This document shows positions 88 through 24,543 of a stretch of DNA of 24,543 nt, piece by piece. Source of the stretch: a virus; the IMG/VR virus record IMGVR_UViG_3300046648_000147, positions 1 through 24,543 of that record. The stretch is one strand, 5' to 3'. The notes beneath the pieces were generated by a model. That model saw nothing but the letters and a program-made list of their open reading frames with translations. It searched no databases and had not been told where the DNA came from. The position numbers were made by a program, and so were the translations under genes. The stretch's first letter is position 1. Each line of letters starts with the position of its first letter.

Positions 88-372
88 GTGACAACAAGCA
101 TTCGATTTTGTGTGTTGGCGATCGGCTTTGCCTTATTGCCAATGGTCGCACAGGCGGAATGGTGTAGCGCGCAAAATCGCGTGGCACCGCACGCAACATC
201 AAATGGCAACAGAAACTTGATTGCAAAGGTGCTGTCGGCAGCACCCTTTTCGCTGCCTGCCGTTGTTACCCTGGTTGCCGCGTGGCGATCCCGATCGCTC
301 TCACTCGACAAAGAAGAATATCCCAGCCTCTTCGGCCGCCGCGAGAAATGCGTGCCGCGCCTCCTCTGGTGA
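88..372 (+). CDS. possible small secreted protein
   Basis: A GTG-started open frame of about 94 codons, preceded by a GGGGA ribosome-site-like stretch; another in-frame GTG lies at 76. The first 23 or so residues look like a Sec signal peptide: a short polar start, a hydrophobic core (LAIGFALLPM) and a VAQA cleavage site before EWC. The rest matches no family I know, and the last 70 bases run antisense to the DUF982 frame, where the peptide looks non-natural. It may be a decayed gene with a surviving signal peptide, or a chance frame. Confidence 0.25.
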   Translation: MTTSIRFCVLAIGFALLPMVAQAEWCSAQNRVAPHATSNGNRNLIAKVLSAAPFSLPAVVTLVAAWRSRSLSLDKEEYPSLFGRREKCVPRLLW

Positions 373-5124: not shown

Positions 5125-7824
5125 CTATCGAATGTTGATGGTGAACGGGCCGGCCATCGGACCGGGCACACCGTCTGCGTTTTGTGGTTCAAGCCAAAAG
5201 AAGTGGAGACCGGCTGCCAGGCTGGTCGTGGTCTCTTCAAAGAGAACTGCGTTGTCGATCGAGCCGACGAACGCCGCTGACGCACGAAATGTCAGAGTGG
5301 TATTGCCGGCCACGGCCTGGATGCGATCGGAGAAGTCGCCGTTGGCGGACTTAGCGATCCCGGCCGCCGTGGTGCCACCGGTCAACTGCGGCGTCAGCGT
5401 GCCGCCCGTGACGCCTGAGAGCGTGCCAGCAATCCGGTAATATTTCCCCGCCGCCAGCTCGCGATCCTGTGACAAATTGCTGGCCGTGCCGGCCGTATGA
5501 TTTGCTACCCCGCCTGCGACCGCCCAGCCGGATCCCAACGACCAGCTCGACCCGCCGTCAAAGCCGCCATCGGCCAGAAGATTGGACCGTGTGGTGTCGC
5601 CAACTGACGTGCTATAGCCGCGAGAAGGCTCGACGGTGATCGGTTCCCCAATCGCATCCGTTGAGCGAAGGACAGTTGACGATAGCGAATGATAGATCTG
5701 AAGCTTTGTTGTCGCTGCATCGGCGGTCGTCGAGAACATCACGACTGCGCCGCCCAATAGCGCACCGACCGAGATCATGCTTGCGTCCAACGCCTGCGGC
5801 AGTGCCGCATCTTGCGCGCCGATCGTGACGTTGACGACGACCGTGAACTCCCCGGCTTGACCTGCCGCATTGAGTGCGGCGGCGCGGATCTGCACCGGTT
5901 GCCCGGTGTTATAGCCGGGGATCGAACGGCCGCCGTCGACAGCAGGAAAATCGATGCTATTCCACGTCGTCGCGCCATTGAACCTATGCTGAATGCGGAA
6001 GGACACGGTAGGCACCGAGCCGGAGCCTGGGCGCAGATTGACTTGCAGACCACCTTCCACCTCGGTCCCGGAAATCCCAGTGGCGATCGACGCAAACACG
6101 GGCGCTGCCGGAAGACCGTTGTTGTTGCCGATGTCATCGCCAACGCGCCCGGACCACGGTTCAGGGACCTCGGCATCTGTCAATTCGTCGATGATGGGAG
6201 CCGCGTCGACCATCGTGTAGATGCTCGACATGTCCTGGCCGGCCTCAACTCTGGTGACGACCAGCGGAAAGCTCTCCGTAAGCGCTTCGCCAAACATGAT
6301 CAGATCGCCGGCCTGCGGCATGACGCCGTCGTCGCTGGTCTCGATGACCACCGCATTGCCTGGCTTGGTTACGAGCTGACGAACAATGCTATTCCCGATC
6401 GTATCTTCAGCGGAGAATACGCGGAACCGGACAGCGTAAGCGCGCCCGGCGACCATCGTGGTCACGTCTTCGAGTTCGATCAGGCGACCCATTACCGAGC
6501 GAACTCGTGTAGCGAGCTGGGTGCGCTCCAGGACGTCAAAGCTGCCGACGACCTTGTCGCCTCGCGTTGCAGTGCGAATGGGACCGTCGACTGTCACCGT
6601 GTGGACATCCGGCCGGTAAAGCGCCTCGTACATGCGGCGGCGCGCCTCGCGCCATATTTCGTCCGGATTGGTCTTGCCGGGCAGTTCGAGCTGCTCTGTC
6701 AGCAGGATATCGCCGCTATGTCCCGGCCACGGGACAAGGCGCTCGGCCTGCTTGTAGTCGTTGGTTTCGTCGAGGAACTGAACGCGGAAGCCATGCGGGT
6801 GCTCGGCATACGTCCGGGTGGACTGGAAGTCGCTGCTATTGCGGGGGGTGAAATGATCGACGACCAGTGTCTGCGGCCGATCGATGACAACGCCCCATCG
6901 GACACCATCATGGCGAGGTGCGGCACGGCCCGCCGCCGCGATCTCCTTGAGGACGTCCTCAAGCGTACTCTCCTCATCAAGCACCTTGTTGAAAGAAAGT
7001 CCCTTGGCAACGCAGAACTCGTGCCATTCCTCGATCTGGGTGAAGTTTATCCCGATGTCGGCGACAGGCTTCGGGTTCGCGGGCGATTGCAGCGCCAGGC
7101 GGAACAGCGAAGCCGGGTTCTTGGTCATGCGGTATATCCACGTCCTGGACGAGCTATCCCAGTCCAGGCAGCGCCGGCGCGCGCGCCCGTTGAAATTGTC
7201 GAGGGCGCCGTTGAGCTGGTAAGTGGCCTTAATCCGCACCGCCACCAACGCCAGGGGCGCGGTGAAATTGAGCGGATACTCGGGACGCAGAGTTTGAAGA
7301 GCAACCCAGGTCGAACGGCCCTGCGTTTGTTGGCTGGTGAACTCGTCCGTCAGCCGGTTGCACTCGATGTCATAGCGTCCCCGCAACGGGAAGTTCCAGG
7401 TGTACTGCCGATAGAAGCCTTCGAACTTCTTGGCCGAGAGGTTCAGCGTGACGACTTCGGTCCATTCCGTCGTTCCCGTGGGTCTCTGTCGAATGCGGAT
7501 CTGTACCGAGACCGATTTCTGCTTGCCCTTGTCGTCAACCTTGCCGAGGCCGGCCGGGAAGCCAAAGATCACGGATGCGCCGCTGGCGTCCGGGCCTGTC
7601 GAGCGGATGATCGGCGTGTCTATCCCCGGCCCGTCGATCTCGTTGCCCTGATCGTCCCGATGTTCCGGCCGGGCCAATTCCGCGCCGACGCTCTCCTCAA
7701 CGATCTGCGTCGAGTAGAGCGTGAGTGGCCAATCCAGCGGTTGCCCCTCGCGGTACTCGATCTGGATCCCGGCGTATCGCCGATCTGGAAGTCGCTGAGA
7801 GCCACGTCTCCATAGCCAAAGCAA
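5125..7824 (-). pseudogene. tail tip protein J, large C-terminal fragment
   Basis: An open frame of 899 codons holding most of a lambda J/host-specificity-type tail tip protein. The genuine protein begins near residue 16 (RYAGIQIEYREGQPLDWPL); the first 15 residues are an out-of-frame read-through of the upstream gene. J-type features include PLTLYSTQIVEESVGAEL, the NFNGRARRRCLDWD region, the EEWHEFCVAKGLSFN region, and fibronectin-like strands near 560-660. Residues about 747-865 resemble a galactose-binding/CBM-like module (SNLLADGGFDGGSSW to SIDNAVLFEE). In relatives this region continues directly from the IGDTP segment, here encoded in another frame at 7770. The two pieces are therefore one gene split by a frameshift near 7768-7779. 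J forms the tail tip and helps contact the receptor, so the split should impair infection. Confidence 0.8.
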
Positions 7825-8444
7825 AAGATCGCGCGGATATACTGGAGGTCGCCGACGACCTCAGTGTAGGACGTCGCGGCAAAGGGCGGCGCATACCGGA
7901 CTTCGCCCATGATCATCGGAACGACGCCATTCGGATCGAGCTTGTTCTGCCATCCGGTGATCTGATAGCTCGTCGACTTGTCGTTCTTGGCCTTGGTTGG
8001 CGGGATCAGTGCATTGATCAAAAGGTTGCCGAGGACAGTGACGCCCAGGGCCGTAATGCCAGCCCATGCGCCTGCGGATAATCCAAACGTGCCGGCCAAC
8101 GCCGGGCCAAGCCATACCTGTCCGATAGCGATCGCCGCGATTGACACGACAACCGAGAGGATCGATCGGAGTGCATCCTTTCCAGGCACGATCCGGATGA
8201 CAACATGCACGCCAGGGCGCGGCCTGACACGCGCCCAATGCTCCGGCGCAACGATGACGCTGCCGCGTTCGGTGACCAGTGCGACGCGGGCGTGAGCGAG
8301 GTCCTGGACGGTTGCCCGTGGCAAGGCAAGGTTCACGATCTCGGCGATCGTTAGACCGGACGGCAGCTCCATCGTGATGCGAGCCGAGCCGGGATCAAGG
8401 AGCGGAGCCGCGAGAACGGGTATGATGTCGGTTTGACCGATCAT
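7620..8444 (-). pseudogene. tail tip protein J, N-terminal fragment
   Basis: The start of the J-type gene. Residues 1-85 are a small N-terminal domain; residues 92-148 are strongly hydrophobic and Ala/Gly-rich (SVVVSIAAIAIG, GITALGVTVLGN), as usual in this family. Residues 160-225 carry the conserved block ending YIRAIFCFGYGDVALSDFQIGDTP. The coding similarity ends at Pro225 (codon 7770-7772). The remaining 49 residues are Arg/Ser-rich, run through the neighbouring frame and look like read-through to a chance stop. The start overlaps the stop of the NlpC/P60 gene as ATGA. Homologues normally have several more residues between IGDTP and the IQIEYREG block, so a small deletion rather than a single-base change is likely. 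Confidence 0.75.
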
Positions 8445-10028: not shown

Positions 10029-12269
10029 TCATCGCGGGATGCCTCTGCGCTTGACGCCGTAAGTCCGCTCAAGAGTTCGACCGGCGTTTCCGCCCTTGGT
10101 ATTCAGCGCATCGCCGACAGTGTCCGAGATGATGAACTTGGTTTGACGCCGGCCGTTCTCGTCGGTCGTCCGCTCGGTCTCAACGTTCGAGTTGCTGTAG
10201 TTATGGATTTCGATCTTGCCAAAGCCGTCGTTACCCGATGACCCGCCCATTGCCCCCGAACCGCCGACGACACCGCCGCGATCGTAGCCACGATAGCCGA
10301 GGCGCATGGCCTCAACCGTAGAAACACCGCCAGCTCGCGCGACATCCGCCTGGCTCCAGACGACCTCGCCCTTGTGGACGACGCCGGCCGGTTCCTTAAC
10401 GCCCCCATGGCCGGTAAAACCGCCGTCCGAAAACAGGCCACCGATCCCACTGGAGACCGCCGCGCGCGCTTGCGCCGAACCGGCGAGAATGGAACTCGGG
10501 CTCGGCGAAAACAGACCGCCAAGCCATCCGAACAGACCGCCGCCAGCGCCACCCGCTGCCGGCGCTGAAGGAAACATGGTCTGTGAAAGGTTCTGCCCAA
10601 ACTGCCCGAGGCCCGTTCCGAACTGGCCTAAGCCTTTGGTCGCCTCTGTCGACGAGGCTGCCAGCTTGCTGACCGCCTTGGCGGCGTCGGTCATGCCGGC
10701 GGATTGGATCCCCGGCCAAAGTGCTGCCTGCTGAGAGTTCAAGCCGCCAGCCCAGGAGCCGCCACCCATACCGACCTTGTTTCCAGCCAGGTCGAAATGC
10801 ATGGTGTCCACAGCACCATACTTGCCTTTGCCGCCCTTGAAATATCCACCCCAGCGAAACTGGTCCGCAAGCTCCGGGTACTTCTCCATCTGCACTTGGC
10901 GTGCGGTCTGCGCAAATCGCTCATACGCCCGGAAGCTCGATGCATCCTGATAATTGCCAAGCATCTTACCGCTGGCGAGATCGGTCAGCTGTACATCGGT
11001 GGCCAGCTTTTGCCCATGGAACCGAGGATCGCCAGGGCGATAGCCGGAGATCGCCTGGACGCCAAACCCCGGAGTGCGCAGCGCGGCCGTGTTCAAGATA
11101 TCAGTCAGGCGAGCGTCGGTGCCACCCCTATAGTTGCCGCCAAAGGTCAGCGCGCTGCCCAGTGCTGCGGCGGTCCCCGAGGTCGATCCGGAAGCACCCC
11201 CGGACACCACGCCAATGGCACTATTATTGGCAGCCTGCGGCACGACCGAACCGAGGCCCGCCGAAATCCCGCCGTTGACCACGACGGAGCCCGCCGTCAC
11301 GGCCATGGAGGCGACCGACTGTCCGCCGCCAAACATCTGCTTGAACGCGCCGCTCAACCCGCCAACGTCGGAGAATGTGCCGTAGTTCGAACCAGTCAGC
11401 GCGTTCTTGAGTGGGTTTGTGACGCCGAGCTGTAGGAGCGTCTTCTTTGCATCGGTTAAGACGCTATCGAGCGCGCCCTTCAAATCGCCGGAACTGAGCT
11501 TGTCGACAGCCCCGTCTATGGCGTCTTCCTCAGCCCTGCGGATCGTGTTCCAGGCATCGGTCGTACGCGAAAGCTGCTGGTTCCATTTCTCCGTTTCGAC
11601 GGCGGCGGCACGAATGCCCTGGGCGATGCCGCCGTTCGGATCGGTGCCCATCTGCTTGATCTTTGCCTCGGCATCATACTGCGCCAGGAGCATAGATTGA
11701 TCGGTCGTCCCACGGCCGGCGATCGACGTCTGAAACCGCAGGCGATCGACGTTGCGCTGCTGATCGCTCAGATAGGACGCAGCATTGGCATTGCGCTGGG
11801 CCTCGGCCACGCCGTCATAGGCTGCACGAAGCTTAGTGATCGTGTCGAGCAGCGCCGCCTTTTCGGCTCCTTCCAATTTCGTCGCTGCCATGACGAGCGG
11901 CCGAAGTTGCAGCTCGGTCTGCAATTGCGTCATTGCCTGATCGGCCGTGATCGTGCCGGCGGCAACCTGCGCCGTCAGCCGGGCGCGGATCTCGGTCTCG
12001 GCCTGCATGTCGGTCGCCTGCGTTTGTGCAGTCGCGATCGTCTCCTGAATGACCTTGTTGCGCTCGCGGGCAACGCTCGCCTCAAGCTCGGTCGAGGCGA
12101 TTTCCTGCGCGCCCAGTTGCAGCCGTGCGCGGCGCGCTTCCAGTTCCGCGCGAATGGCCGGATTGCGCTCGTTCTGGATCTGGATATCGATCCGGTCCAG
12201 CTCGCTCGCTCGTGCCTGTTTGTTGATCAGGGCATCGAGCGCACGGGTCGGTGCCCTCGGTCGTTTCAA
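10029..12269 (-). pseudogene. tape measure protein, N-terminally truncated
   Basis: A frame of 746 codons whose only start is a TTG created at a deletion junction. Residues from about 11 onward are typical middle-of-tape-measure sequence: long Glu/Ala/Arg-rich helices (NPAIRAELEARRARLQ, IQETIATAQTQATDMQ). The C-terminal part has GGFTGHGGVKEPAGVVHKGEVVWS (residues about 635-660), a conserved tape measure signature, and ends with the family's TERTTDENGR and GNAGRTLERTYG segments. Residues about 395-510 look like an M15/VanY-type zinc peptidase: RFHGQKLATD with His418 and Asp425, then FRWGGYF and VDTMHFD with Asp488 and His491. Relatives are usually several hundred residues longer at the N-terminus. 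The missing part and the preceding tail genes were lost in the deletion. Confidence 0.8.
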
Positions 12270-12309
12270 TTTTTACAAGGATCGCTTTCTTTCTCGCGAA
12301 CTTCGTCAT
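12244..12309 (-). pseudogene. tail tube protein remnant, first 22 codons
   Basis: The frame starting at 12309 begins MTKFARKKAILVKIETTEGTD, which is the characteristic beginning of the major tail tube protein in Mu-like siphophages. After codon 22 the frame passes into tape measure sequence read in the wrong register and continues as unrelated residues to a stop at 12082. The rest of the tube gene (usually about 300 codons) is missing. The start lies just after the small gene ending at 12313, exactly where the tube gene belongs. Confidence 0.75.
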
Positions 12310-12312
12310 GGA

Positions 12313-12504
12313 TCAGGCCTTTCCTTTTTTGCCGCCGGTCTCTTCCTCGGCTGGGGTTTCAACGACGGCCAGATCTCCGGCCTGGGGTTCGATCACGGCC
12401 GGCGCAGTCGCCGGCGTCTCGGCTGCAACGTCCGCCGCCTTGATAGGCGTCAGGGTTCCGTTCTTTTCGCGGCGATAGGAGCCGCCAGTTTGCGGGTGCG
12501 TCAT
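12313..12504 (-). CDS. small protein upstream of tail tube gene
   Basis: A 63-residue protein beginning MTHPQTGGSYRREKNGTL, followed by an Ala/Pro/Glu-rich low-complexity middle and a basic end, GGKKGKA. I chose this start because it overlaps the upstream stop as ATGA; the frame is open further upstream but inside the neighbour gene. Similar short proteins beginning with a TGGSY-type motif sit between the tail terminator and tail tube genes of Mu-like prophages. No function is known. It is probably a minor structural or chaperone-like peptide. Confidence 0.7.
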   Translation of the reverse strand: MTHPQTGGSYRREKNGTLTPIKAADVAAETPATAPAVIEPQAGDLAVVETPAEEETGGKKGKA

Positions 12505-12923
12505 GTGCTCTCCAAAGTTCGAGTGGTTTTCCAGGTCTGGACGAACACGGTTGCTCCTTTGCCGAGCGCCGAACTCGACTGGCTGGCAACCAGCTCGAAC
12601 AGCTCCTCGCTTTCGTCCCACGCCCAGCCGGCCAGCGCGCTTTCGATCTCGTCACGGATCTGCTCGTACTCGGTGAGCCGATCGCTGCCTTTGGCGTCGT
12701 CGTAGCGGCGGATGAAGAAGGCGATGATGATCCAGACTTCGATCGACTGACGGAAACGGCCCGACGTGAACTGATTGGCCTGAGCGTTCTCCCGGAAGGG
12801 CAGAACGAAGACAGTGCGGGTCCTCGGCATGACGCCATTCGAAAGCGCTTCCAGATCCTCGGCCGCCAGGACATCGGCCAACGTTGTTTCCGCCTTCAGG
12901 CGCGCGATGACAGCCGAGATCAT
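12501..12923 (-). CDS. tail terminator-like protein (gp37/DUF1834 type)
   Basis: A 140-residue protein placed between the DUF1320 gene and the small pre-tube gene, the position of Mu gp37 and of the lambda U-like tail terminator. It starts with an amphipathic helix (ISAVIARLKAETTLADV), has strands around TRTVFVLPFRENAQANQF and FRQSIEVWIIIAFFI, then a helix with YEQIRDEIESALAGWAWDE. This alpha/beta pattern with a hydrophobic central strand and GWA/W near the C-terminus fits minor tail/terminator proteins. The tail terminator caps the tube and sets where it joins the head. Both ends overlap neighbours by ATGA. The exact family name is less certain than the role. Confidence 0.7.
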   Translation of the reverse strand: MISAVIARLKAETTLADVLAAEDLEALSNGVMPRTRTVFVLPFRENAQANQFTSGRFRQSIEVWIIIAFFIRRYDDAKGSDRLTEYEQIRDEIESALAGWAWDESEELFELVASQSSSALGKGATVFVQTWKTTRTLEST

Positions 12924-13333
12924 AGAAAGCCCTCATAATTGAAATTCGGCTTCACCAGGAGAACGCGACCAGCGCCGTCGCTCGGCTTTTGGCTGGCATC
13001 GTCAAACGGCAGATTGATCTTTCCGGTTGCCACGTCTTTCAGCGCATCCATGGCAGCTTTCCAGTCGCGGACCACATGGTCCGGAGCGCCGTTCAGATGC
13101 AGATGGTAACGTGCGATCGACACCGCCCAGGTGCGAACCAGTTCCGGGATGGCGGGAAGCGGGAGGCCATAGCGGGTGCCAATATAGCCGTCGATCTCGC
13201 TGCCTGCCGTGGCGACTGCCTTGTCGATGACATCCGCGTCCGCAACACCGTCGCGATCGCGGTCAGCGACCTGGAGGATTTCCTCCTCGCCGGCACGCTC
13301 AATGAGATCGGACAGCGTCGCGTAAGCGGTCAT
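12920..13333 (-). CDS. DUF1320 head-tail connector protein (Mu gp36-like)
   Basis: A 137-residue protein of the DUF1320 family. It begins MTAYATLSDLIERAGEEEILQVADRD and contains the family's typical central stretch: AVATAGSEIDGYIGTRYGLPLP, then LVRTWAVSIARYHLH and VVRDWKAAMDALKDVATG. The fold is helical and related to head-completion or adaptor proteins that attach to the portal. It ends NFNYEGFL and its stop overlaps the next gene as ATGA. Synteny with Mu gp36 supports the call. Confidence 0.9.
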   Translation of the reverse strand: MTAYATLSDLIERAGEEEILQVADRDRDGVADADVIDKAVATAGSEIDGYIGTRYGLPLPAIPELVRTWAVSIARYHLHLNGAPDHVVRDWKAAMDALKDVATGKINLPFDDASQKPSDGAGRVLLVKPNFNYEGFL

Positions 13334-13335
13334 GA

Positions 13336-13536
13336 TTATGCCTGCTGCTCGGATTCGGCAGCTTCTTTGGCGCGCGGCTCGACGGCCTCGGCATGCTCAA
13401 GCTGCCCAAGCACCGTGGCGGAGACATCGACGATCTCACCCGGCATGCGCTTGACGCCGTCGATACGCGCGGGCTTCAGCAGCTCGACGATGAAATTCTC
13501 CACCTGATCGGCGGCATCGCTTTTCTTCGTGGCCAT
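13336..13536 (-). CDS. small phage protein after capsid gene (gp35-like position)
   Basis: A 66-residue protein starting MATKKSDAADQVENFIVELL with a good AAAAAGGA ribosome site upstream. The middle, PARIDGVKRMPGEIVDVSATVLGQLEHAEAVEP, has the look of the small FluMu-type proteins encoded between capsid and DUF1320 in Mu-like prophages (IxGxxxxPGxxVxV followed by a short helix). Function is unknown; a capsid accessory role is inferred from position. An ATG further upstream in frame lies across the intergenic hairpin and is not favoured. Confidence 0.7.
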   Translation of the reverse strand: MATKKSDAADQVENFIVELLKPARIDGVKRMPGEIVDVSATVLGQLEHAEAVEPRAKEAAESEQQA

Positions 13537-13579
13537 GGTCGTTCCTTTTTCAAAGGTGGTTGGTGAACTGCCGCTGTTT

Positions 13580-13600
13580 GGCTGGCGCATGACGCCAGCC
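13580..13600 (-). terminator. hairpin after the major capsid gene
   Basis: GGCTGGCG and CGCCAGCC form a perfect 8-bp stem with a 5-base loop in the 117-base gap following the capsid gene. A second small dyad (AGGAC/GTCCT, 13607-13619) lies beside it. No U-tract follows. It is more likely to be an mRNA-stabilising or attenuating hairpin that raises capsid expression relative to downstream genes than a full terminator. Confidence 0.4.
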
Positions 13601-13653
13601 GGGCTAAGGACATTGTCCTCGCGGCGCTCCCGCTCAGAATTCACCCGAAGGCG

Positions 13654-14592
13654 TCAGAGGACGTCTTCCAACAGGTATCCAAGCTCCGGAGCCGCCACGA
13701 CTTCCTTGACGCTTTCGCCGGAGCGGACACGGACGGAGCCCTTGAGCCCGATCTTCGGTTCGTCGATCGATCCGGAGACGCGTTCGCCATGCTGGGCAGT
13801 CCAGGCATAGGTCGGCGTCGCATCGATCGAGCTGGCGAGAGGTGCCTTGAAGAACAGCAATGCATTGCCGCTCCAGGCACGCTGCATGCTGACGGCCTGA
13901 CCCTTCTTCGAGCGGTTGATCCAGCCTTCACCGATGATGATGTCATCCAGCTCCAGCAGATCAGCCACGGCGCGCTTGTTCGCCATGCCCTTGTCGGATC
14001 CGGAGACTGTAAGCGCTTGAAGCACAGTCGGGTTGGTGCGCAAGCCGGTCCATTCAACGCGGCCCAGCACCATGTTGTTCGGGCGCATGACCATGGTGTC
14101 AGCAGCTTCGCTGATCAGCCGGATCGGATTGCTGGCGGCATCCGACCACTTGTCCGTGCCGGTCAGTGTTTCCTTGTTGCTGGCGGGGTAGAGACTTTCG
14201 TCGAACGCCTTGTTGGCGACGCGGACTTCGCGATCCAGAAGCACCAGATCGATGAGCTTCTGCGCGGAGAACGCGCGCGGGTCGTAACCGGCCGGCGCAT
14301 TATTGATGTCATCGAGCGGAATGACGTCGTCGAGACCGTAATCATCGGTCTTGTCTTCGTGCTCGTCACCCTGAAACTCGACTTCGTTGGGCGAGGATTT
14401 ACGGCCGACTTTCGTGTCCTGCACGGTGATGAACTGACCGAAGGCGAAGGACCACCAGGTGAACTTCTTCTTCGGCAGGTTCGGCGTCAGGCGCGGCATC
14501 ACCAGATCGGCGATCAGCGTGTTGTTCTTGTAGGAGTTGATGATACCGGTCAGCACCGGATCGACGGGGAACGGCGTGCCGCTCGTGCTCAT
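13654..14592 (-). CDS. major capsid protein
   Basis: A 312-residue protein directly following the protease/scaffold and DUF2190 genes. It starts MSTSGTPFPVDPVLTGIINSY and has features of the major head proteins of Mu-like siphophages: LIADLVMPRLTPNLPKKKFTWW, a charged loop (EVEFQGDEHEDKTDDYGLDDVIP), AQKLIDLVLLDREVRVANKAF, and the C-terminal strand pattern with ALLFFKAPLASS and TYAWTAQHGERVSGSID. An HK97-type fold is inferred from family membership. The length is normal and no lesion is visible. A PAGYDPRAFSA motif marks the start of the helix that usually follows the E-loop. Confidence 0.85.
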   Translation of the reverse strand: MSTSGTPFPVDPVLTGIINSYKNNTLIADLVMPRLTPNLPKKKFTWWSFAFGQFITVQDTKVGRKSSPNEVEFQGDEHEDKTDDYGLDDVIPLDDINNAPAGYDPRAFSAQKLIDLVLLDREVRVANKAFDESLYPASNKETLTGTDKWSDAASNPIRLISEAADTMVMRPNNMVLGRVEWTGLRTNPTVLQALTVSGSDKGMANKRAVADLLELDDIIIGEGWINRSKKGQAVSMQRAWSGNALLFFKAPLASSIDATPTYAWTAQHGERVSGSIDEPKIGLKGSVRVRSGESVKEVVAAPELGYLLEDVL

Positions 14593-14619
14593 GATGACTC
14601 CTTAGAAAGTTGAGGGCGA

Positions 14620-14991
14620 TCAGCCCTGGATCTGGCCGGGGGTTACGAGGACACGGGCGATGTCACCAGAGACAGCGCCGATGGTGAGGATGCCGCCCGT
14701 TCGCGCGTTGGCGGCGGCAGCGGGGGCTGCGGCGACGGCCTTGCCGCCAGGACCGGCCGTGAAGAACGAGCCGAAGGTGACAGTGCCGCCGACCTGGACT
14801 TCGGTTTCGCCAAACAGAACGACGTCGATGCGCTCACCGATCGCAGCGCCGCCTGGATAATCGGTGACACCGATGATCTTGTCGGCGGGCGCGGTTGCAA
14901 GATCGACCTGACCGTCAGATGCGCCGGCCTTGACCAGCACCTGGTGACCGATGGCCGCGACAGCGACGAAAGACTTGATAAGCTTGCTCAT
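14620..14991 (-). CDS. DUF2190 capsid decoration protein
   Basis: A 123-residue protein beginning MSKLIKSFVAVAAIGHQVLVKAG. It has the short beta-strand pattern of the DUF2190 capsid-cement family: DKIIGVTDYPGGAAIGERIDVVLFGETEVQVGGTVTFG, then a GGKAVAAAP loop and IARVLVTPGQIQG at the end. Such proteins bind the outside of the capsid shell and stabilise it after expansion. Synteny (protease, decoration, capsid) supports this. It is 18 bases from the protease stop and 27 bases from the capsid start. Confidence 0.85.
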   Translation of the reverse strand: MSKLIKSFVAVAAIGHQVLVKAGASDGQVDLATAPADKIIGVTDYPGGAAIGERIDVVLFGETEVQVGGTVTFGSFFTAGPGGKAVAAAPAAAANARTGGILTIGAVSGDIARVLVTPGQIQG

Positions 14992-15009
14992 GCTGGACCC
15001 TTTCTGGCC

Positions 15010-15468
15010 TTAGCGTTTGGTGAGGCGCATAGCCGCTTCAGCCGGCGAGATTGTCTCGCCACGCCCGCGCGCCGCTTCGATTTCGGTATTGATCGCGTCC
15101 TTGACGTGGGACGGATCGGAGAAGTCGGGACCGTCGCCGGTAGCAACCTCGCCGGTTGCCACGGGGACCGGCAGCTTGCCGAGCAGTTGACGGAAGCCGT
15201 CGCGGGCGGACAGCGACTTGTCTTCGCCATCTTCCGAGAACGAGAGAACGCCATCGTCCAGGTCGGCGAAGATCGCCGTCACCAACGGCTTCAGCCCGAC
15301 AGGGAGACGGCCGGCCGAAACAACTCCGTTGACGAACACTTCGTCTTCGGCAGCGCGGGCGGCGCGCGCGGTCTCTTCGTTCTTGCGGGCCTTTTCCGCA
15401 AAGCTCGTTTCACGCTCTGCGATCTCACGCTCACGGCGTTCCAGTTCGGCAATTTTGGCTGCGTCCAT
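15010..15468 (-). CDS. nested in-frame scaffold protein (Mu gpZ-like)
   Basis: Within the protease gene, an ATG at 15468 is preceded by AGAGGA four bases upstream, a better ribosome site than that of the full-length gene. The product would be 152 residues: a helical, highly charged coiled coil (AAKIAELERREREIAERETSF), then LPVGLKPLVTAIFADLDDG and a C-terminus PAEAAMRLTKR. In Mu the scaffold Z is made from an internal start in gene I, and lambda Nu3 is nested in C in the same way. The call rests on that precedent plus the visible ribosome site. Confidence 0.6.
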   Translation of the reverse strand: MDAAKIAELERREREIAERETSFAEKARKNEETARAARAAEDEVFVNGVVSAGRLPVGLKPLVTAIFADLDDGVLSFSEDGEDKSLSARDGFRQLLGKLPVPVATGEVATGDGPDFSDPSHVKDAINTEIEAARGRGETISPAEAAMRLTKR

Positions 15469-16107
15469 GACATCCTCTTTTTCGGTGTAGGTGGTGAAGG
15501 GTGCTGCGGGCTCCGGATCGCGGATCTGCTGTGCAGCCTCGGTGATGGTGTCGATGCGCCAGGACGGAACGACCGCGTCGGCCGCTTCGATGCCCTTGTC
15601 GGCGATGATCGATTCCCGGAAAGTGCGAAACAGGCCGGCGATCGTGTCGAAGACCCAGGCCGTGCGAACGATGGCCGCGTCGTCAAACTGGAGAACGTCG
15701 GCGTCGTCAGCGAACTCGATAGACTTCAGCCCCTTCACGGCGGGTGCTGCCGCACCCAGGAAGCCGACATGCTTCAGGTAGTATTTCCCTGGCGTCGGAT
15801 TGTTTGGATGATTGGGCGGATAGAAGCTCGAAGAGACCTTGCTGAACCGACGATCCTTCACCAGCTCGGCAAACTGCGGCTCGACGTTTTGCGGCTCGGC
15901 AACAAGGTGACCGTCCCTGAAAGAGACGGACTTGATCCAGCCGTAGGCGGGTGCATCCTGTTTCGGATGCCCGACGACGATCGGCGCTTCATGCAGCGCC
16001 GTATCGTATTGCGCGGCGATCGCCTGCAGGTCGTCATCCGTGAAGGAAAACGGCCGGCCTTGGCTATCGGTGTGGTTGCCAGTGCGGAAAATATCGATCG
16101 GTTTCAT
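15010..16107 (-). CDS. Mu gpI-like prohead protease with scaffold region
   Basis: A 365-residue protein when started at MKPIDIFRTGNHTDSQGRPF, which matches the usual beginning of Mu-I proteases. An in-frame ATG at 16131 would add eight residues, and neither start has a clear Shine-Dalgarno site. The N-terminal half has the family blocks DDLQAIAAQYD, HEAPIVVGHPKQDAPAYGWIKS, FSKVSSSFYPP, and TPGKYYLKHVGFLGAAAPAVKGLK. The C-terminal 150 residues are a charged, coiled-coil scaffold (IAELERREREIAERE) that probably occupies the prohead and is later cut. It matures the capsid during assembly. The gene starts after a 215-base structured gap, unlike the tightly packed genes around it. Confidence 0.88.
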   Translation of the reverse strand: MKPIDIFRTGNHTDSQGRPFSFTDDDLQAIAAQYDTALHEAPIVVGHPKQDAPAYGWIKSVSFRDGHLVAEPQNVEPQFAELVKDRRFSKVSSSFYPPNHPNNPTPGKYYLKHVGFLGAAAPAVKGLKSIEFADDADVLQFDDAAIVRTAWVFDTIAGLFRTFRESIIADKGIEAADAVVPSWRIDTITEAAQQIRDPEPAAPFTTYTEKEDVMDAAKIAELERREREIAERETSFAEKARKNEETARAARAAEDEVFVNGVVSAGRLPVGLKPLVTAIFADLDDGVLSFSEDGEDKSLSARDGFRQLLGKLPVPVATGEVATGDGPDFSDPSHVKDAINTEIEAARGRGETISPAEAAMRLTKR

Positions 16108-16134
16108 GCCGGGCAGATTGGCCCAGGGCATTTC

Positions 16135-16157
16135 GGCAAAACAGCCGCAAGGGTTTG
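16135..16157 (-). repeat. copy B of a 23-base intergenic repeat
   Basis: Identical over 23 bases to 9939-9961. In this copy one stem base differs just outside the identical core (TTGTGG instead of TTGCGG), which weakens the hairpin on the minus strand. It sits 28 bases before the preferred protease start. Confidence 0.5.
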
Positions 16158-16211
16158 TGGGAAACCAGCGATCGAAGGCAATCAGTCTGTCAGAGACATA
16201 TCACACCCGCC

Positions 16212-16320
16212 CTCAGGGGCAAGGCTTCGCCGTTAAAGTGGTTTCTAAGGCCATAGACGGCGATTGAAGCCTTGCCTGCGGCAATCTCCCGTCCGGAGCC
16301 CCTGAGCGCGTTTCTGGGGC
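16212..16320 (-). other. structured intergenic element between gpG and gpI genes
   Basis: The segment holds nested inverted repeats. GGCAAGGCTTCGCCGT (16218-16233) pairs with 16257-16276, which carries the complementary arms GAAGCCTTGCC and ACGGC separated by GATT. CTCAGGGGC (16212-16220) pairs with GCCCCTGAG (16298-16306). GGGGC at 16316-16320 offers an alternative partner for GCCCC at 16298-16302. No U-tract follows. It may be a structured leader or regulatory RNA, or a small palindromic mobile remnant similar in style to rhizobial repeat elements. Confidence 0.45.
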
Positions 16321-16322
16321 CG

Positions 16323-16835
16323 CTATTTCGATCCGGCCGTATTCTCGATCGCATCCAGGAAGTGATCCTCAATGATCTCCTGGATACGGACCTGGTCCTC
16401 GCTGCTGAAGCCGAGAAATTGACGCCTGGGGATTGTGACCTTTTTCACCATGAAGGTCTGTCCGCCCATGGAGAACATCAGCGCGGCGGCGTTCTTGGGA
16501 ACGATGGTTGCGCCCTCGTTGTGGGCGCGGGCGTAGATCACATTGGAGCCGATCTCCACACCGCTCGATGCGAGCTGCCAGATGATGCTGGACAGATCGC
16601 GCGTCGGGCCGACAAGGATCGAAGCGCCCTTCTTGGTGAGGGCATAGAGATCGTTGAGCTTCTGCCAGGCATTGCCGTCCGGATCCTGCTGGGTGCGAAA
16701 CCGCTCCTTGGTCGCCTCGGCCTCGTACTCGCCGATGTTCTTGTAAACGGGTGTCAGGGTGCCGGCCGCAGCCAGCAGGCGATCGAGGGCGTCAATGATA
16801 TCCTTGTCGTCGATCGTCAGCGTTGCGGCGGTCAT
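16323..16835 (-). CDS. virion morphogenesis protein (Mu gpG-like)
   Basis: A 170-residue protein beginning MTAATLTIDDKDIIDALDRLL; this start overlaps the stop of the MuF gene as ATGA, so the longer upstream frame is rejected. It fits the phage virion morphogenesis family: ATKERFRTQQDPDGNAWQKLNDLYALTKKGASILVGPTRDLSSIIWQ, then NVIYARAHNEGATIVPKNAAALMF and the PRRQFLGFSSEDQVRIQEIIEDHF end. The PRRxFLGxS motif is diagnostic. Mu G is needed for tail/head completion and has been linked to head-tail joining. The length is normal and no lesion is seen. Confidence 0.9.
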   Translation of the reverse strand: MTAATLTIDDKDIIDALDRLLAAAGTLTPVYKNIGEYEAEATKERFRTQQDPDGNAWQKLNDLYALTKKGASILVGPTRDLSSIIWQLASSGVEIGSNVIYARAHNEGATIVPKNAAALMFSMGGQTFMVKKVTIPRRQFLGFSSEDQVRIQEIIEDHFLDAIENTAGSK

Positions 16836-18058
16836 TTGCCATTCCTTCGATAAAGCAGCGCGCCACGGCGATAGCGATCGGCGGCTTCCGCCGACGTCGG
16901 CTCTGCCACCGCCGTCCAGCCAAGCTTCGTCCATTCGAAGCGCAGAAACGTGCTCGTCCCGTCAGGGAGGAGTATGCGCTTGAGGTATGAACGACGTAGA
17001 ACAATGCCGGATTTGACCGAGCCCCAATCCAGCCAGATCTCGTCGGGCTGGCGAATCGCATCCGCCAGCACGCGCGCATATCGCCCATAGGCCGGATTGT
17101 TGTTTTCATTTGCTGCCGTCACGTCCGGCCGGAACAACGACTTGCCGATCGGCACGATGCCGCCCGAGGCATCGCGATAGTAACCGCCCTCATTGCCCTG
17201 TAGACCGAACATCGACAGGAAGGCTGCAGCACCATCCTCGGGCTTGGCTTCCGGCGGAAGCAACTCTTCCCAATTCGTTTCCGTCGCCTTCGGCATGGCG
17301 GGCAGGTTTTCAGGTTTGGTGTCGGCGACGGCGGGCAGCGGTGTGCGCAGCTCCGTGGGCACGATGCCAGAAAGCCATTCCTCGCCGACATTGTAGTCCC
17401 AGCCGCGATCGATGCCGGGATAACGCAGCTCCGGATAGCCGGTGCTCGGATCCACGCTCTCATATGGCGTCAGGTCCGGGGCCTCATCGGGACCGGATTT
17501 TCCAAGCCGCTTCAAATCCCGTTCAGAGAGGGCTTTGACATCGCAACCACAGCCCCAGCCGTTTGGCGGAAACATGTATCTCCAGGCAGGGTCGATCGTA
17601 GCGAGAACAAGGCCATCCCAATGCAGATGCAGCAAACGGGGATGCAGTGCGCGTGAATGGACATACTGGAGATAGGGCCGGTATTTCAGAACGTCCGGAT
17701 CGGTCAGCTGCTTCCAGCGCCCAGCCATATAGGATGTGCGCATGTTCGTCCTGTAGATGATCCCGGCGCGCCATTCGCGGCGCTCCTCGTCAGTGCCGCC
17801 CTTGGCATTGAACTTCCAGCCGGTGCGATCGACGATCTCGTCAAAGCTCTTTCGAAACTCGTTAAAGCCCGTGCCGGCAGTGCGAGCCGTCAGCAGTGCC
17901 GCCATGAAATCCGAGAGCATGTCGTCGCGGGCAATGCCGGCCACGGTGAAGCCACGAACCTGGCCCTGCCGCGTGACATCGTCCCAGCGCCTGGTCGGCA
18001 GGTTGACCTTGCTGCGCAGAAAGTCGATCGCTTCCTGGAAGGGGAGTTGATCAGCCAT
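16832..18058 (-). CDS. MuF/gpF head protein with C-terminal PBECR nuclease domain
   Basis: A 408-residue protein. Residues 1-215 are the MuF (Mu gp30) head morphogenesis domain: QEAIDFLRSKVNLPTRRWDD, then WRAGIIYRTNMRTSYMAGRW, and PRLLHLHWDGLVL followed by the cysteine pair FPPNGWGCGCDVKAL. After a Pro/Glu linker, residues about 284-408 match the phage Barnase-EndoU-ColicinE5/RelE-like (PBECR) nucleases: RPDVTAANENNNPAYGRYARVLADAI, QPDEIWLDWG, LRRSYLKRILL, FEWTKLGWTAV, and RRGALLYRR. MuF is a minor capsid protein near the portal; the fused domain may be injected with DNA and act as an RNase toxin on the host or competitors. The start overlaps the portal stop by 8 bases. No immunity gene was recognised. 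Confidence 0.88.
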   Translation of the reverse strand: MADQLPFQEAIDFLRSKVNLPTRRWDDVTRQGQVRGFTVAGIARDDMLSDFMAALLTARTAGTGFNEFRKSFDEIVDRTGWKFNAKGGTDEERREWRAGIIYRTNMRTSYMAGRWKQLTDPDVLKYRPYLQYVHSRALHPRLLHLHWDGLVLATIDPAWRYMFPPNGWGCGCDVKALSERDLKRLGKSGPDEAPDLTPYESVDPSTGYPELRYPGIDRGWDYNVGEEWLSGIVPTELRTPLPAVADTKPENLPAMPKATETNWEELLPPEAKPEDGAAAFLSMFGLQGNEGGYYRDASGGIVPIGKSLFRPDVTAANENNNPAYGRYARVLADAIRQPDEIWLDWGSVKSGIVLRRSYLKRILLPDGTSTFLRFEWTKLGWTAVAEPTSAEAADRYRRGALLYRRNGK

Positions 18059-19523
18059 TGGCCGAGGCCTGACCTTCCAGGTCAGCCGCCAACGTCGCCT
18101 GCGCCATCAGCTGTGCGAGATCGTCGATCGACATGTCGCCGGACAAGCGAGCAAGGCGCTCGGCCAGATCGTCATAGGATGCCGCCTCGCTAAAGGCTGC
18201 CTCAATGTCGGCGATCATGGCGTCGATTGCCGGCCGGCCGAGGGTGGCCAGTTGGTCCGAAAGATCCGCGACGGTTTTCTCGGACTGCGTTTCCGGACGC
18301 TCCGGATCGGCAAAGGCAAGACCCGCGGCGGCACTCGGCTGCTGGTCAGCTGGGTTTGGTTCGGCAATCTTCTGCTGCTCTACCCACTCGCCGCCATAGG
18401 TGTCGTTGATGTAATCCACCGAGGCTGGCTTATAGCCCATGCCGTAAATGGTCTCGTCGCGCTTGACCTTTTCGTCCAGATCTTCGGCCTCGGAGAAGTC
18501 GCGCCATACGTCCGGCACCGCTTCGCCAGGATAGTTCAAATCCACGTACCACTGAACCGCCGTTTCCTTGACAGTCTGGCAAGTCAAATCCGCATCGGCC
18601 TTCGCGATCGCGATCCGGACCTCGTTATGGATTTCACCCAGGGACCGCGCACCGCGTTCACCGGAATTGGTGCTCAAGGTCTCGCCCAGTACGGCTTCGC
18701 TCATCAGCTCGTCCAGGTAGCGCGAAAGGGTGGCGAATTGGTCGCCCTGGTTCTTGGCTTCCAGCAACTCGACTTTGACGTTTTCGGGAAAGATCAGGCT
18801 GTCGGATCCCTGCATGGACGCAAACACGCTCGCCAGCTGATCCTGTTTCAGCTGATCGAAGCCGCCCTGATACTGGCCGAGCGTCGTCGGCGCGGCATGC
18901 TTGCGGGTGGCCTGAAGCCAGTTTGCCAACACCTGGCGCTTGAACCAGGCGGGCCAGAACAACACCGAACCAAGGCCAACGCCGTAGGGGTCGTCGTCGT
19001 CATCATCGACGGAATGGCGATGGATAACGAACTTCCGATCAGGCGCCACAATGCCGTCGACCGGTGACGATCGGGTGAGGACGCGCAGGTTTCCATCCAT
19101 ATCGAACCGGAAGCGCCGCTGTTTCTTGACCTTGATCGAAGAGGGCTTCCAAATGCCGCCGTCGTTGATCCACATGATTTCGCCGACCGAAAAGCCCTTC
19201 AGCACAGCGCCAAGCAGCCCTTTGGTCAGGCGGTCGAAGTTGATCGTCTTTAGCCATTGTTCAACCTCGGCCGCGATCCGTTTGTCGATCCGGCGATCGG
19301 AAGCAGGAAAGACCTTCCACTCCCGGCTGACCACTTCAAGCTTCCGCTTCTGCAGGATGGCAAAGGCATGTGGATCGCGCCGGATCTCGTCATAGACCTT
19401 GTAGGCCGACGCGCCGCCACGCGACACCAGCACCTCGTCCGTTGGCTGCATGACCGTCTGGAAGAACGGCACAAACGGGTCCGACTGTATGGTTGCGATT
19501 TCCGTGGTGACCGGATTTGCCAT
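18051..19523 (-). CDS. DUF935 portal protein (Mu gp29-like)
   Basis: A 490-residue portal protein. It has the DUF935 blocks: DPHAFAILQKRKLEVVSREWKVFPASD, FDRLTKGLLGAVLKGFSVGEIMW, FVIHRHSVDDDDDDPYGVGLGSVLFWPAWFKRQVLANWL, KVELLEAKNQGDQFATLSRYLDELMSEAVLGETL, and a C-terminal Pro/Glu-rich part followed by a helix bundle. Portals form the dodecameric DNA channel at one head vertex. The start is supported by GAGGATGTAAC before the ATG. Upstream, where terminase genes should be, there are only 38 bases to the end of an early gene. Two unusual runs are the DDDDDD stretch near residue 170 and the Ala/Glu-rich C-terminus. Confidence 0.92.
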   Translation of the reverse strand: MANPVTTEIATIQSDPFVPFFQTVMQPTDEVLVSRGGASAYKVYDEIRRDPHAFAILQKRKLEVVSREWKVFPASDRRIDKRIAAEVEQWLKTINFDRLTKGLLGAVLKGFSVGEIMWINDGGIWKPSSIKVKKQRRFRFDMDGNLRVLTRSSPVDGIVAPDRKFVIHRHSVDDDDDDPYGVGLGSVLFWPAWFKRQVLANWLQATRKHAAPTTLGQYQGGFDQLKQDQLASVFASMQGSDSLIFPENVKVELLEAKNQGDQFATLSRYLDELMSEAVLGETLSTNSGERGARSLGEIHNEVRIAIAKADADLTCQTVKETAVQWYVDLNYPGEAVPDVWRDFSEAEDLDEKVKRDETIYGMGYKPASVDYINDTYGGEWVEQQKIAEPNPADQQPSAAAGLAFADPERPETQSEKTVADLSDQLATLGRPAIDAMIADIEAAFSEAASYDDLAERLARLSGDMSIDDLAQLMAQATLAADLEGQASANG

Positions 19524-19561
19524 GTTACATCCTCAAGAAGTTGGTCAGGGTTGCCGCCCCT

Positions 19562-19819
19562 TCATGACTGTGCCTCTCCCTCGGACTTGGTGCCTGCGAG
19601 CATCGGCAGCATGGGCTTGAAGCGGTCACCATGGTCGGCGACCAACTTTGCGGCCTTCAGAGCGAGATCGGCATTATGAATGAGCTGCTCGCTCACAGCG
19701 ACGATGGCGTCGGTACGCTTTACTTCCATCTCGATCGTCTCGGGCGTGATGCTCTCGTCAGAAAGTCGTTCCAGCTGCATGAAGAGATGGTTGTTGAGGT
19801 CGATCAGTCTGTTTTTCAT
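19562..19819 (-). CDS. small conserved phage protein
   Basis: An 85-residue protein with a strong AGGAGA ribosome site. MKNRLIDLNNHLFMQLERLSDE, followed by EMEVKRTDAIVAVSEQLIHNADLALKAAKLVADHG, matches a small helical protein common in proteobacterial phages just before or within the early-to-late junction, usually upstream of terminase or endonuclease genes. Function is unknown. It is the last gene before the apparent loss of the activator, lysis and terminase genes; its end (KSEGEAQS) looks natural, so a deletion would begin just after it. Confidence 0.75.
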   Translation of the reverse strand: MKNRLIDLNNHLFMQLERLSDESITPETIEMEVKRTDAIVAVSEQLIHNADLALKAAKLVADHGDRFKPMLPMLAGTKSEGEAQS

Positions 19820-20492: not shown

Positions 20493-21191
20493 TCAGATCC
20501 TTTCAAAGGTGGTTTGAAGAGTTTTCAGGGAGGCTTCGAGCGCCTTGCGGGCCGGGCGCTCGTTGATGGTGGTTTCGGCCGCTTGCAGGGCCTGACGCGC
20601 GGCAACCACAGCCTTTGCGGCATTAACGATCGTGCCGGCCTGACTGGAGGTGTGCAGGGCGGCGGTGTCGGCCACAGCATGCAAATGATCGCGCTCGGCC
20701 TGCCAGGCGCAGCGCTCTTCTGCGAATTGAACCTCAAGCAGCTCCAGCTGCTGGGCATAATGCGAGACGCCCATCACGAGGGCGCGCATCTCTTCAAGCG
20801 ACATCGACAGCTCGCGAAGCGGCTGGTTCAACACGCGGTCGGCGACTGCGGCTGGATCGATGTCCTCGAAAACGTGCTCGAACTGTACCGACGCTTTCTC
20901 GGTCATGACGACGGACATTTCGAGCGCTTCGATTTCGCGCCGCAGGATCTCGTCGTGCACCAGCTCCTCGCCGATCAGGTGGACGGCGCGCATGACAGTC
21001 GTGTGGTCAAAGCCGCCCATGTACCGGCCTATCTCCGGATAGGAACGCGATGTCATGCGCTTGGCGATCATCCAGCCGACGTGCCGGGCGCGCACCGTTT
21101 TCGGGCCACGCCGCTTCGAGTGCAACTCGCGGATCGGCACCTGATAGGCTTCCGAGACCACTTCCGTAATCAGCCTGCAGGTAACAGTCAT
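20493..21191 (-). CDS. DnaA domain-IV-like DNA-binding protein
   Basis: A 232-residue protein beginning MTVTCRLITEVVSEAYQVPIRELHSKRRG; this start overlaps the previous stop as ATGA. Residues about 5-75 match the DNA-binding domain IV of DnaA: a helix ending in the basic KRRGPKTVRARHVGWMIAKRMT, then YPEIGRYMGGFDHTTVMRAV, close to the DnaA signature GGRDHTTVxxA that contacts DnaA boxes. No AAA+ domain precedes it. The remaining 150 residues are helical with coiled-coil potential (EMRALVMGVSHYAQQLELLEVQFAEERCAWQAER, then Ala-rich helices). The family occurs in alphaproteobacterial phages. It may compete for DnaA boxes or direct host replication machinery to Mu-type replication; this is inference. 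Confidence 0.8.
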   Translation of the reverse strand: MTVTCRLITEVVSEAYQVPIRELHSKRRGPKTVRARHVGWMIAKRMTSRSYPEIGRYMGGFDHTTVMRAVHLIGEELVHDEILRREIEALEMSVVMTEKASVQFEHVFEDIDPAAVADRVLNQPLRELSMSLEEMRALVMGVSHYAQQLELLEVQFAEERCAWQAERDHLHAVADTAALHTSSQAGTIVNAAKAVVAARQALQAAETTINERPARKALEASLKTLQTTFERI

Positions 21192-21493
21192 GCCGCGTTC
21201 CCCCCGGTCGGGCGATGATCCGGAGCGCGGCCTGGAAAGGCGACGACGTTGCCGCCGATCGGAGCGCCGCCGTCCTCGGAAATCTGACGGTCGCGGGCTG
21301 CACGGTCGTTCCACTCGCGGCAACTGATCTCGCTTTCGAGATTGCGGGCCGTGTCGATGAATTCGTCGAAGCGCTTGATGAAGCCCTCCAGCTCTTCGTC
21401 GTTGAGATAGACACCGCCATGGCGGAAATCCGCGAGACGGTTGCGGGTGGCGATTAGATGATCGGACAGATAATCAAGCTTGCGATTGGACAT
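21188..21493 (-). CDS. hypothetical early phage protein
   Basis: A 101-residue protein starting MSNRKLDYLSDHLIATRNRLADFRHGGV. The N-terminal 60 residues form a predicted helical pair rich in Asp/Glu/Arg (LNDEELEGFIKRFDEFIDTARNLESEIS); the C-terminal 40 residues are Gly/Pro-rich and probably unstructured (GGNVVAFPGRAPDHRP). No family is recognised. It overlaps the next gene as ATGA and the previous one by 20 bases, so it is part of the coupled early block. Confidence 0.65.
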   Translation of the reverse strand: MSNRKLDYLSDHLIATRNRLADFRHGGVYLNDEELEGFIKRFDEFIDTARNLESEISCREWNDRAARDRQISEDGGAPIGGNVVAFPGRAPDHRPTGGNAA

Positions 21494-22946: not shown

Positions 22947-23696
22947 TCAGCGCCCCCGACGCGGCGCTTGGCCGGTGAAGACATCGCCGTGATAGTCGGC
23001 AAGGGCGATTGCTTCCAACTGCTGCGCCCGTGCGAATTCGGACACCCGCGAGAGCGATGCGACGATGCGGGAGGCGACGCCGTGGGTCTTGTCGACGATG
23101 TGAGCGAGAAGATCATCCTGCACGGTCAGCTTCGGGTGATAGATGCGGGCGAGCTGCTGGGCGTCGCCGAGGTCGCTGGGATTGGCCATGCCGTAGGCGG
23201 AGACGCGGTTCTCGCAGCGCTCGTAGCGGGCAAGCTTCTCCGGCAGCAATTCTTCGCCGACCAGCAAGACCGGGATCCGCGCGCCTTTGTAGAGATCGCG
23301 CACCAACTCGATCATGCCCTTGTCAACGAGCTTGTCGGCCTCGTCGATGATCAGCAGGCGGTTGGGATCGTCCTGCAGCAGGCGCATGGCCTGGACCATC
23401 ATGCTTGCGATGGTGCCTTTCGGCTTCTCGACACCCAGCTCGGCGAGCAGAAACTCGCAGAACGTCTTCTTGGTCCAGAAATCGAAGACCTCCAGATAGA
23501 TCGCACCGGTCTTGTTCTGCACATACTGGCTGGCCTTCGATTTGCCGTAGCCAGATCTGCCGTAAAACAGGCCGAGGCCGTCGATGCCGGCAGGCCGGTT
23601 GATGATCTGCTGGGCAACCGAAAACGCTTCCGCAACGTTCTTCAGCGGGGCCACGGTTCCGAAGCTCGGATTGACATTCTGCATTCTCACGTTCAT
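22947..23696 (-). CDS. MuB-like AAA+ transposition ATPase
   Basis: A 249-residue AAA+ ATPase of the MuB/TniB type. Walker A is GRSGYGKSK (residues about 46-54), Walker B RLLIIDEADKL (about 113-123), and a sensor-like region follows at PVLLVGEELLPEKLARYE with an arginine-rich CENRVSAYGM. The C-terminal part (QDDLLAHIVDKTHGVASRIVASLSRV) resembles the MuB C-terminal domain. MuB binds ATP and DNA, selects target sites away from the phage, and activates MuA. It lies directly after the transposase gene. An in-frame ATG five codons in (MQNVNPSFG) is an alternative start. All key residues are present. Confidence 0.93.
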   Translation of the reverse strand: MNVRMQNVNPSFGTVAPLKNVAEAFSVAQQIINRPAGIDGLGLFYGRSGYGKSKASQYVQNKTGAIYLEVFDFWTKKTFCEFLLAELGVEKPKGTIASMMVQAMRLLQDDPNRLLIIDEADKLVDKGMIELVRDLYKGARIPVLLVGEELLPEKLARYERCENRVSAYGMANPSDLGDAQQLARIYHPKLTVQDDLLAHIVDKTHGVASRIVASLSRVSEFARAQQLEAIALADYHGDVFTGQAPRRGR

Positions 23697-23723
23697 CCTT
23701 CAGTCCTTCTCTAAGTTTTCTTC

Positions 23724-23747
23724 GCCCGCTGGCTGCAACCGGCGGGC
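23724..23747 (-). other. hairpin between transposase and MuB genes
   Basis: GCCCGCTGG and CCGGCGGGC form a 9-bp stem with one mismatch around a 6-base loop in the 59-base gap between the two genes. No U-tract follows. A role in mRNA stability or in setting the A:B ratio is possible but not shown. Confidence 0.35.
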
Positions 23748-23755
23748 ATTCCATT

Positions 23756-24543
23756 TCAGGTACGCAGACCCGGTGCCTGATCACCGAAATCGTCAAACAT
23801 CGCCTTTTGGGTTTTGAACTCGCTGCTGGTCTGATAGCCGCCAGCCCAGTGAGCCTCGGCCGGGTCAACCGGATCGCCGGCCCGAAGGCGGGCATCGACG
23901 TCCTGCCAGCGACGGAATCTCTGTGCCGGTGTCGGAGAGGTACGGATCGGCTGGACATTCGCGCCATGCGCTTGCGGTTTCAGATCGGCCAGAACTTCAG
24001 CGTGCAGATCCGCGACATGCGCCGCCATCTTGGCCGGTTCGGGCTTGCGGATGGCGTCCAGCGCGGCGGCGATCGCGGGTGTCGTGTGCTGCTCTTCGCG
24101 CTTCGGCAGCTGGACGACGTTGTCGATCGCGGCATCACGCTCGGCCTTTTTCTTCTTGGCAAGCCGGATGGTGCGCTCGATGCCGGAAGGACCTTTCTTC
24201 AGCTCTCGGATATCGGCCTTGATCTCGCGTTCCTTCGCGCGGATGAGGTCGGCGGAAATCTCCTTCTGCGCCTTGACGTAGGCCTGCGGATTGACATCAG
24301 CCAATTCGGGGCAAAGCGCGATATCGAGGAAGCGACCGCCATCCGGCTCGTAGACATAGATCTTGCCCATATCCATCGGATCGAGGCGGACGAACACGTC
24401 GACGCCGGGCATGATTTTGCCGGTCAGATAGTGGAAATGATTGAGCTTGATGCCCTGTTTGGTCATCTTGCAGATGCCGTTCTTCCTCGCGACCGGCATC
24501 AGCAGAGCATCGAGCGCACGCTCATCGACACGGCGGATGGTCA
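23756..24543 (-). CDS. Mu-type transposase, C-terminal part (partial)
   Basis: The gene enters from the right edge; 261 C-terminal residues are visible (first in-frame residues TIRRVDERALDALL). Residues from KLNHFHYLTGKIMPGVDVFVRLDPMDMGKIYVYEPDGGRFLDIA match the Mu transposase C-terminal beta-barrel (Mu_transpos_C). It is followed by long basic helices (QKEISADLIRAKEREIKADIRELKKG, LAKKKKAERDAAID), the region that in MuA contacts MuB and ClpX. The catalytic DDE domain and the end-binding domains lie outside the window. The closing RWQDVDARLRAGDPVDPAEAHWAGGYQTSSEFKTQ is typical of alphaproteobacterial versions. It catalyses integration and replicative transposition. Confidence 0.92.
   Translation of the reverse strand, partial: TIRRVDERALDALLMPVARKNGICKMTKQGIKLNHFHYLTGKIMPGVDVFVRLDPMDMGKIYVYEPDGGRFLDIALCPELADVNPQAYVKAQKEISADLIRAKEREIKADIRELKKGPSGIERTIRLAKKKKAERDAAIDNVVQLPKREEQHTTPAIAAALDAIRKPEPAKMAAHVADLHAEVLADLKPQAHGANVQPIRTSPTPAQRFRRWQDVDARLRAGDPVDPAEAHWAGGYQTSSEFKTQKAMFDDFGDQAPGLRT

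Follow-up and report, generated by a model that had tools for sequence, protein, structure and literature searches.

Bacterial genomes show a deletion bias, and in a survey of sequenced prophages the genes for terminase, portal, and lysis/lysin functions were preferentially lost from incomplete prophages, which were enriched in transposase, integrase, and tail fibre genes (PMC7744054). The closest relative of the element described here is a collinear prophage at 621422-662360 of Rhizobium lusitanum 629 plasmid p_1 (NZ_CP050307.1), in which both ends and a 5-bp target duplication (GCTCT) are visible. Its tape measure frame is split near 633650 by a 1-nt shift in a run of A, which may mean that this prophage is defective as well, or that there is an error in the record. 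A second collinear relative, the 40,830-bp prophage of R. lusitanum P1-7 (NZ_FMAF01000003.1; IMGVR_UViG_2615840626_000002), has intact genes for the tube (310 aa), the tape measure (1444 aa), the terminase (544 aa), and J (1111 aa); the target duplication did not fix the position of its left end.

Gene content and layout of the window

The window, i.e., the whole stretch of DNA analysed here, is a virus record of 24,543 bases (IMGVR_UViG_3300046648_000147) that comes without its wider genome. We conclude that it very probably represents the greater part of a Mu-like transposable prophage undergoing decay through deletions, one of which (junction 1) arose via a short shared sequence, and that the host, judged from the nearest relatives, is probably Rhizobium. 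Nearly all long frames with family matches lie on the minus strand in a Mu-like order, which from high to low coordinates comprises the Mu transposase C-terminus, a MuB/TniB-like ATPase, regulators, DUF3164, portal, Mu F-like protein, neck protein, protease, major capsid protein, adaptors, tape measure, minor tail proteins, J, and then fibre. The features on which the following analysis depends are:

163..217 (+): probable right prophage end, TGTAGCGCGCAAAATC..., common to the right ends of both R. lusitanum prophages
5125..8444 (-): gene for tail-tip protein J, in two frames through a deletion of ~16 nt near 7763-7775 (nucleotide alignment; single frame in relatives)
10029..12248 (-): C-terminal part of the tape measure gene, frame open, without native start (phrog_19487 from profile position 491; P1-7 residues 707-1444)
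12244..12248 (-): deletion junction 1, the 5-base overlap ACCCG of two alignments (blastn against NZ_CP050307.1)
12244..12309 (-): tail tube remnant, first 22 codons (aligned with residues 1-22 of the 310-aa PF18906 tube protein of NZ_CP050307.1)
12313..14991 (-): intact head and connector genes upstream of the tube remnant, namely small genes, head-tail adaptor, major capsid protein, and head decoration/scaffold-like (PHROG matches; 94.6% DNA identity to NZ_CP050307.1 over 12244-16837)
18051..19523 (-): intact portal gene (phrog_113; 97% to NZ_CP050307.1), directly preceded by the terminase gene in relatives
19525..19561 (-): deletion junction 2, at 19554/19555, where the last codons of the terminase large subunit gene meet the beginning of the gene that follows the 85-aa phrog_2044 gene (from relatives)
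22947..24543 (-): transposition genes, i.e., MuB/TniB-like ATPase and, truncated by the window end, the C-terminal part of the Mu transposase (PF05621, PF13401, PF09299; homology to NZ_CP050307.1 up to 24533)

The original prediction had assigned the element to Mu-like phages, and this assignment is borne out by the Mu-transpos_C domain (PF09299, E 8e-9; only the C-terminal part because the window ends), the MuB/TniB-type ATPase (PF05621/PF13401), the Mu F-like head protein (PF04233) and DUF3164 (PF11363), as well as by the 5-bp target duplication in the relative. Mu-like phages end in TG...CA with a 5-bp target duplication. The TG at 163 agrees with the right ends of the relatives, and because the conserved sequence at 163-217 is the probable right end, positions 1-162 are probably host DNA; the left end falls outside the window. 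Compared with NZ_CP050307.1, the window has 94.6% DNA identity over 12244-16837 and 89% over 16911-19554, and the transposition, head, and tail genes follow the same order; however, NZ_CP050307.1 possesses a tube gene, small genes, the tape measure N-terminus, a terminase gene, and a lysis region that the window lacks. Identity to the P1-7 prophage is lower (71-81% at the DNA level), with DUF3164 being 93% identical.

Two further genes may be mentioned here. A PBECR2 nuclease-like domain (PF18810, E 9.5e-23) lies at the C-terminus of the Mu F-like protein (16832-18058). This protein is 80% identical to that of the relative, whereas its neighbours are 97% identical (dN/dS 0.28 for the Mu F-like protein). 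Between DUF3164 and the regulators, a 276-aa frame (20493-21323) contains a DnaA C-terminal helix-turn-helix domain (PF08299).

The tail tube start is joined to the middle of the tape measure gene

The 75-aa frame at 12309..12082 (-) begins with MTKFARKKAILVKIETTEGTDP and afterwards runs out of register, while the 746-aa frame at 12269..10029 (-) consists of tape measure sequence from ...RALDALINKQARASELDR onward. The tube remnant aligns with residues 1-22 of the NZ_CP050307.1 tube protein at 73% identity (E 1e-5), and the complete 310-aa gene belongs to PF18906 Phage_tube_2 (E 1e-15). By blastn, window positions 11251-12248 correspond to 633481-634477 of NZ_CP050307.1 at 87%, and positions 12244-16837 correspond to 638006-642600 at 95% (94.6%). 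The break is at 12244-12248, inside the interval 12225-12309 in which the original prediction had read a tube start passing out of register into tape measure sequence.

The loss at this junction amounts to 3,528 bp relative to NZ_CP050307.1 and to about 3.81 kb relative to the P1-7 prophage. In NZ_CP050307.1, the missing 3,528 bases complete the tube gene and continue with a 148-aa gene, which occupies the chaperone position, and a DUF1799 gene; they also encode ~610 N-terminal residues of the tape measure, which carry a PF06791 domain. In the 1444-aa P1-7 tape measure, the 746-aa frame corresponds to residues 707-1444 (68%); in the NZ_CP050307.1 tape measure, it corresponds to the part from residue 611 onward (95%). 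The proposed absence of the tube gene, the small genes, and the tape measure N-terminus is thus supported, all of them being present in the collinear relatives, which are 3.5 and 3.8 kb longer at this site.

The parental sides of the break in NZ_CP050307.1 read GGCACCGATCCG in the tube gene and CAAACCCGCGCG in the tape measure gene; comparison of the two suggests that the undeleted parent of the window probably had three to five bases in common at these two sites. Judged from relatives at 87-95% identity, ACCCG appears to be the only sequence common to both parental sides at the break. The tape measure frame opens at an out-of-frame tube TTG at 12269. It had been proposed that this TTG was created at the junction; instead, it lies in tube codons 14-15 (AAA ATT GAA), about 20 bases before the break, and therefore predates the deletion.

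The dN/dS values relative to NZ_CP050307.1 are 0.056 for the tape measure remnant, 0.047 for the capsid, and 0.059 for the portal. Because the remnant is open throughout and has such a low value, we suggest that the deletion is recent relative to the split of these phages, an estimate from constraint that gives no date.

Two additional lesions in the same prophage

The interval between portal and DUF3164 spans about 7-8 kb in both relatives compared to 0.3 kb in the window. In the relatives, these 7-8 kb hold the terminase gene, small genes, endolysin- and spanin-like frames, the late activator, and GemA. In the window, the 0.3 kb contain the 85-aa gene (phrog_2044), the start of the next gene, an early gene, ATGAAGGGGCG, and then the terminase end, GCAACCCTGACCAACTTCTTGAGGATGTAA, which is the same in NZ_CP050307.1. 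Of the terminase gene, 11 codons are left, and the remainder together with about 7-8 kb is absent from the window. The third lesion affects gene J, which the relatives encode in a single frame (1111 or 1131 residues) and the window in two. The deletion at junction 2 (within 19525-19565) exceeds that at junction 1, and neither it nor the lesion in J was listed in the original prediction; the single deletion of a few kilobases proposed there is supported at junction 1 by both relatives, but the prophage has at least two lesions besides it.

The junctions and the missing genes in other genomes

Related loci were collected by searching with the tape measure, capsid, and portal. Wherever such a locus spans the site, a whole tube gene is present and is followed in order by the 148-aa gene, DUF1799, and the N-terminal part of the tape measure, to the extent that the locus continues; similarly, the terminase gene adjoins the portal gene in every locus covering that side. 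No relative has the junction, and we rejected the idea that it is the native arrangement of this phage group. We also considered that whole copies of the missing genes lie elsewhere in the window; the relative's tube, however, matches only 22 residues there, and the relative's terminase gives no match.

A 22-mer across junction 1 and a 28-mer across junction 2 were not found in other viral contigs, a search from which the records closest to the window may be absent, and 0 of 148 genomes of the genus had a continuous match across junction 1, closely related copies not being counted. A scan of genome contigs with the adaptor protein yielded one useful genome, and a phages collection gave only short 4-7% matches to the tape measure, which were of no help on the junction.

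Discussion

Compared with intact relatives, the window has lost genes for the phage particle: the tube gene, the tape measure N-terminus, and the terminase gene are absent, and J is frameshifted. Because two relatives that are collinear on both sides hold the missing stretch, a defective prophage is favoured. From its gene content, the prophage is predicted to be unable to package DNA or build a tail by itself. We suggest that illegitimate recombination between ~5 shared bases (ACCCG) in the tube gene and the tape measure gene took out about 3.5-3.8 kb, with this microhomology as the likely driver. The loss runs from tube codon 23 through the 148-aa and DUF1799 genes into the tape measure gene, of which about 610-700 codons are gone. 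GemA and the late activator would have been lost in a second deletion, together with the terminase and lysis-type genes; a further, small deletion would have disrupted J. All of these deletions presumably occurred recently, in the host chromosome or a plasmid.

An assembly or library artefact, in which the sampled prophage is intact and the contig wrongly joins distant places through a chimeric read or a mixed-template consensus, would account for the absence of the exact junctions from other viral contigs; moreover, the record is a single virus contig, and two large junctions within 24.5 kb are a lot. Yet, junction 1 shares only about 5 bases, far below an assembler overlap, and the window has no N, leaving nothing for a repeat-driven assembly collapse to act on. 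The ~16-nt lesion in J belongs to a different size class, a kind of change that assembly does not produce, and the other head genes are all intact at 95% identity. We consider such an artefact unlikely and a true deletion much likelier than an assembly error.

The retention of transposition and regulator genes, at least in part, and of head genes under purifying selection relative to the relative could also point to a functional mini-Mu-like or satellite derivative, i.e., a stable, selected element that has retained its genes for transposition, regulation, and the head and is moved with the help of a related active phage supplying tail, terminase, and lysis functions. Against this, both junctions lie inside genes and leave fragments (22 tube codons, 11 terminase codons, and a headless tape measure) rather than clean modules, J is frameshifted, and the selection signal is mostly older than the deletions. 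A satellite should also recur as a reduced gene set in several strains, while no second copy of either junction was found in viral contigs, nor one of junction 1 in the 148 genomes of the genus. We regard a selected element of this kind as highly improbable.

For annotation, a decaying prophage means that the record should be labelled as a defective prophage and that the 75-aa and 746-aa frames should not enter databases as natural tail proteins; beyond annotation, the significance is small. The window illustrates prophage decay clearly, its break points being readable to within a few bases.

This kind of loss is an ordinary stage of prophage decay. As in the incomplete (cryptic) prophages surveyed previously (PMC7744054), terminase and lysis genes have been lost while transposase and tail genes are kept, and the window prophage follows the reported trend except that the portal gene is retained. 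Compared with these prophages as a class, the window has nothing distinctive, and its biology is ordinary.
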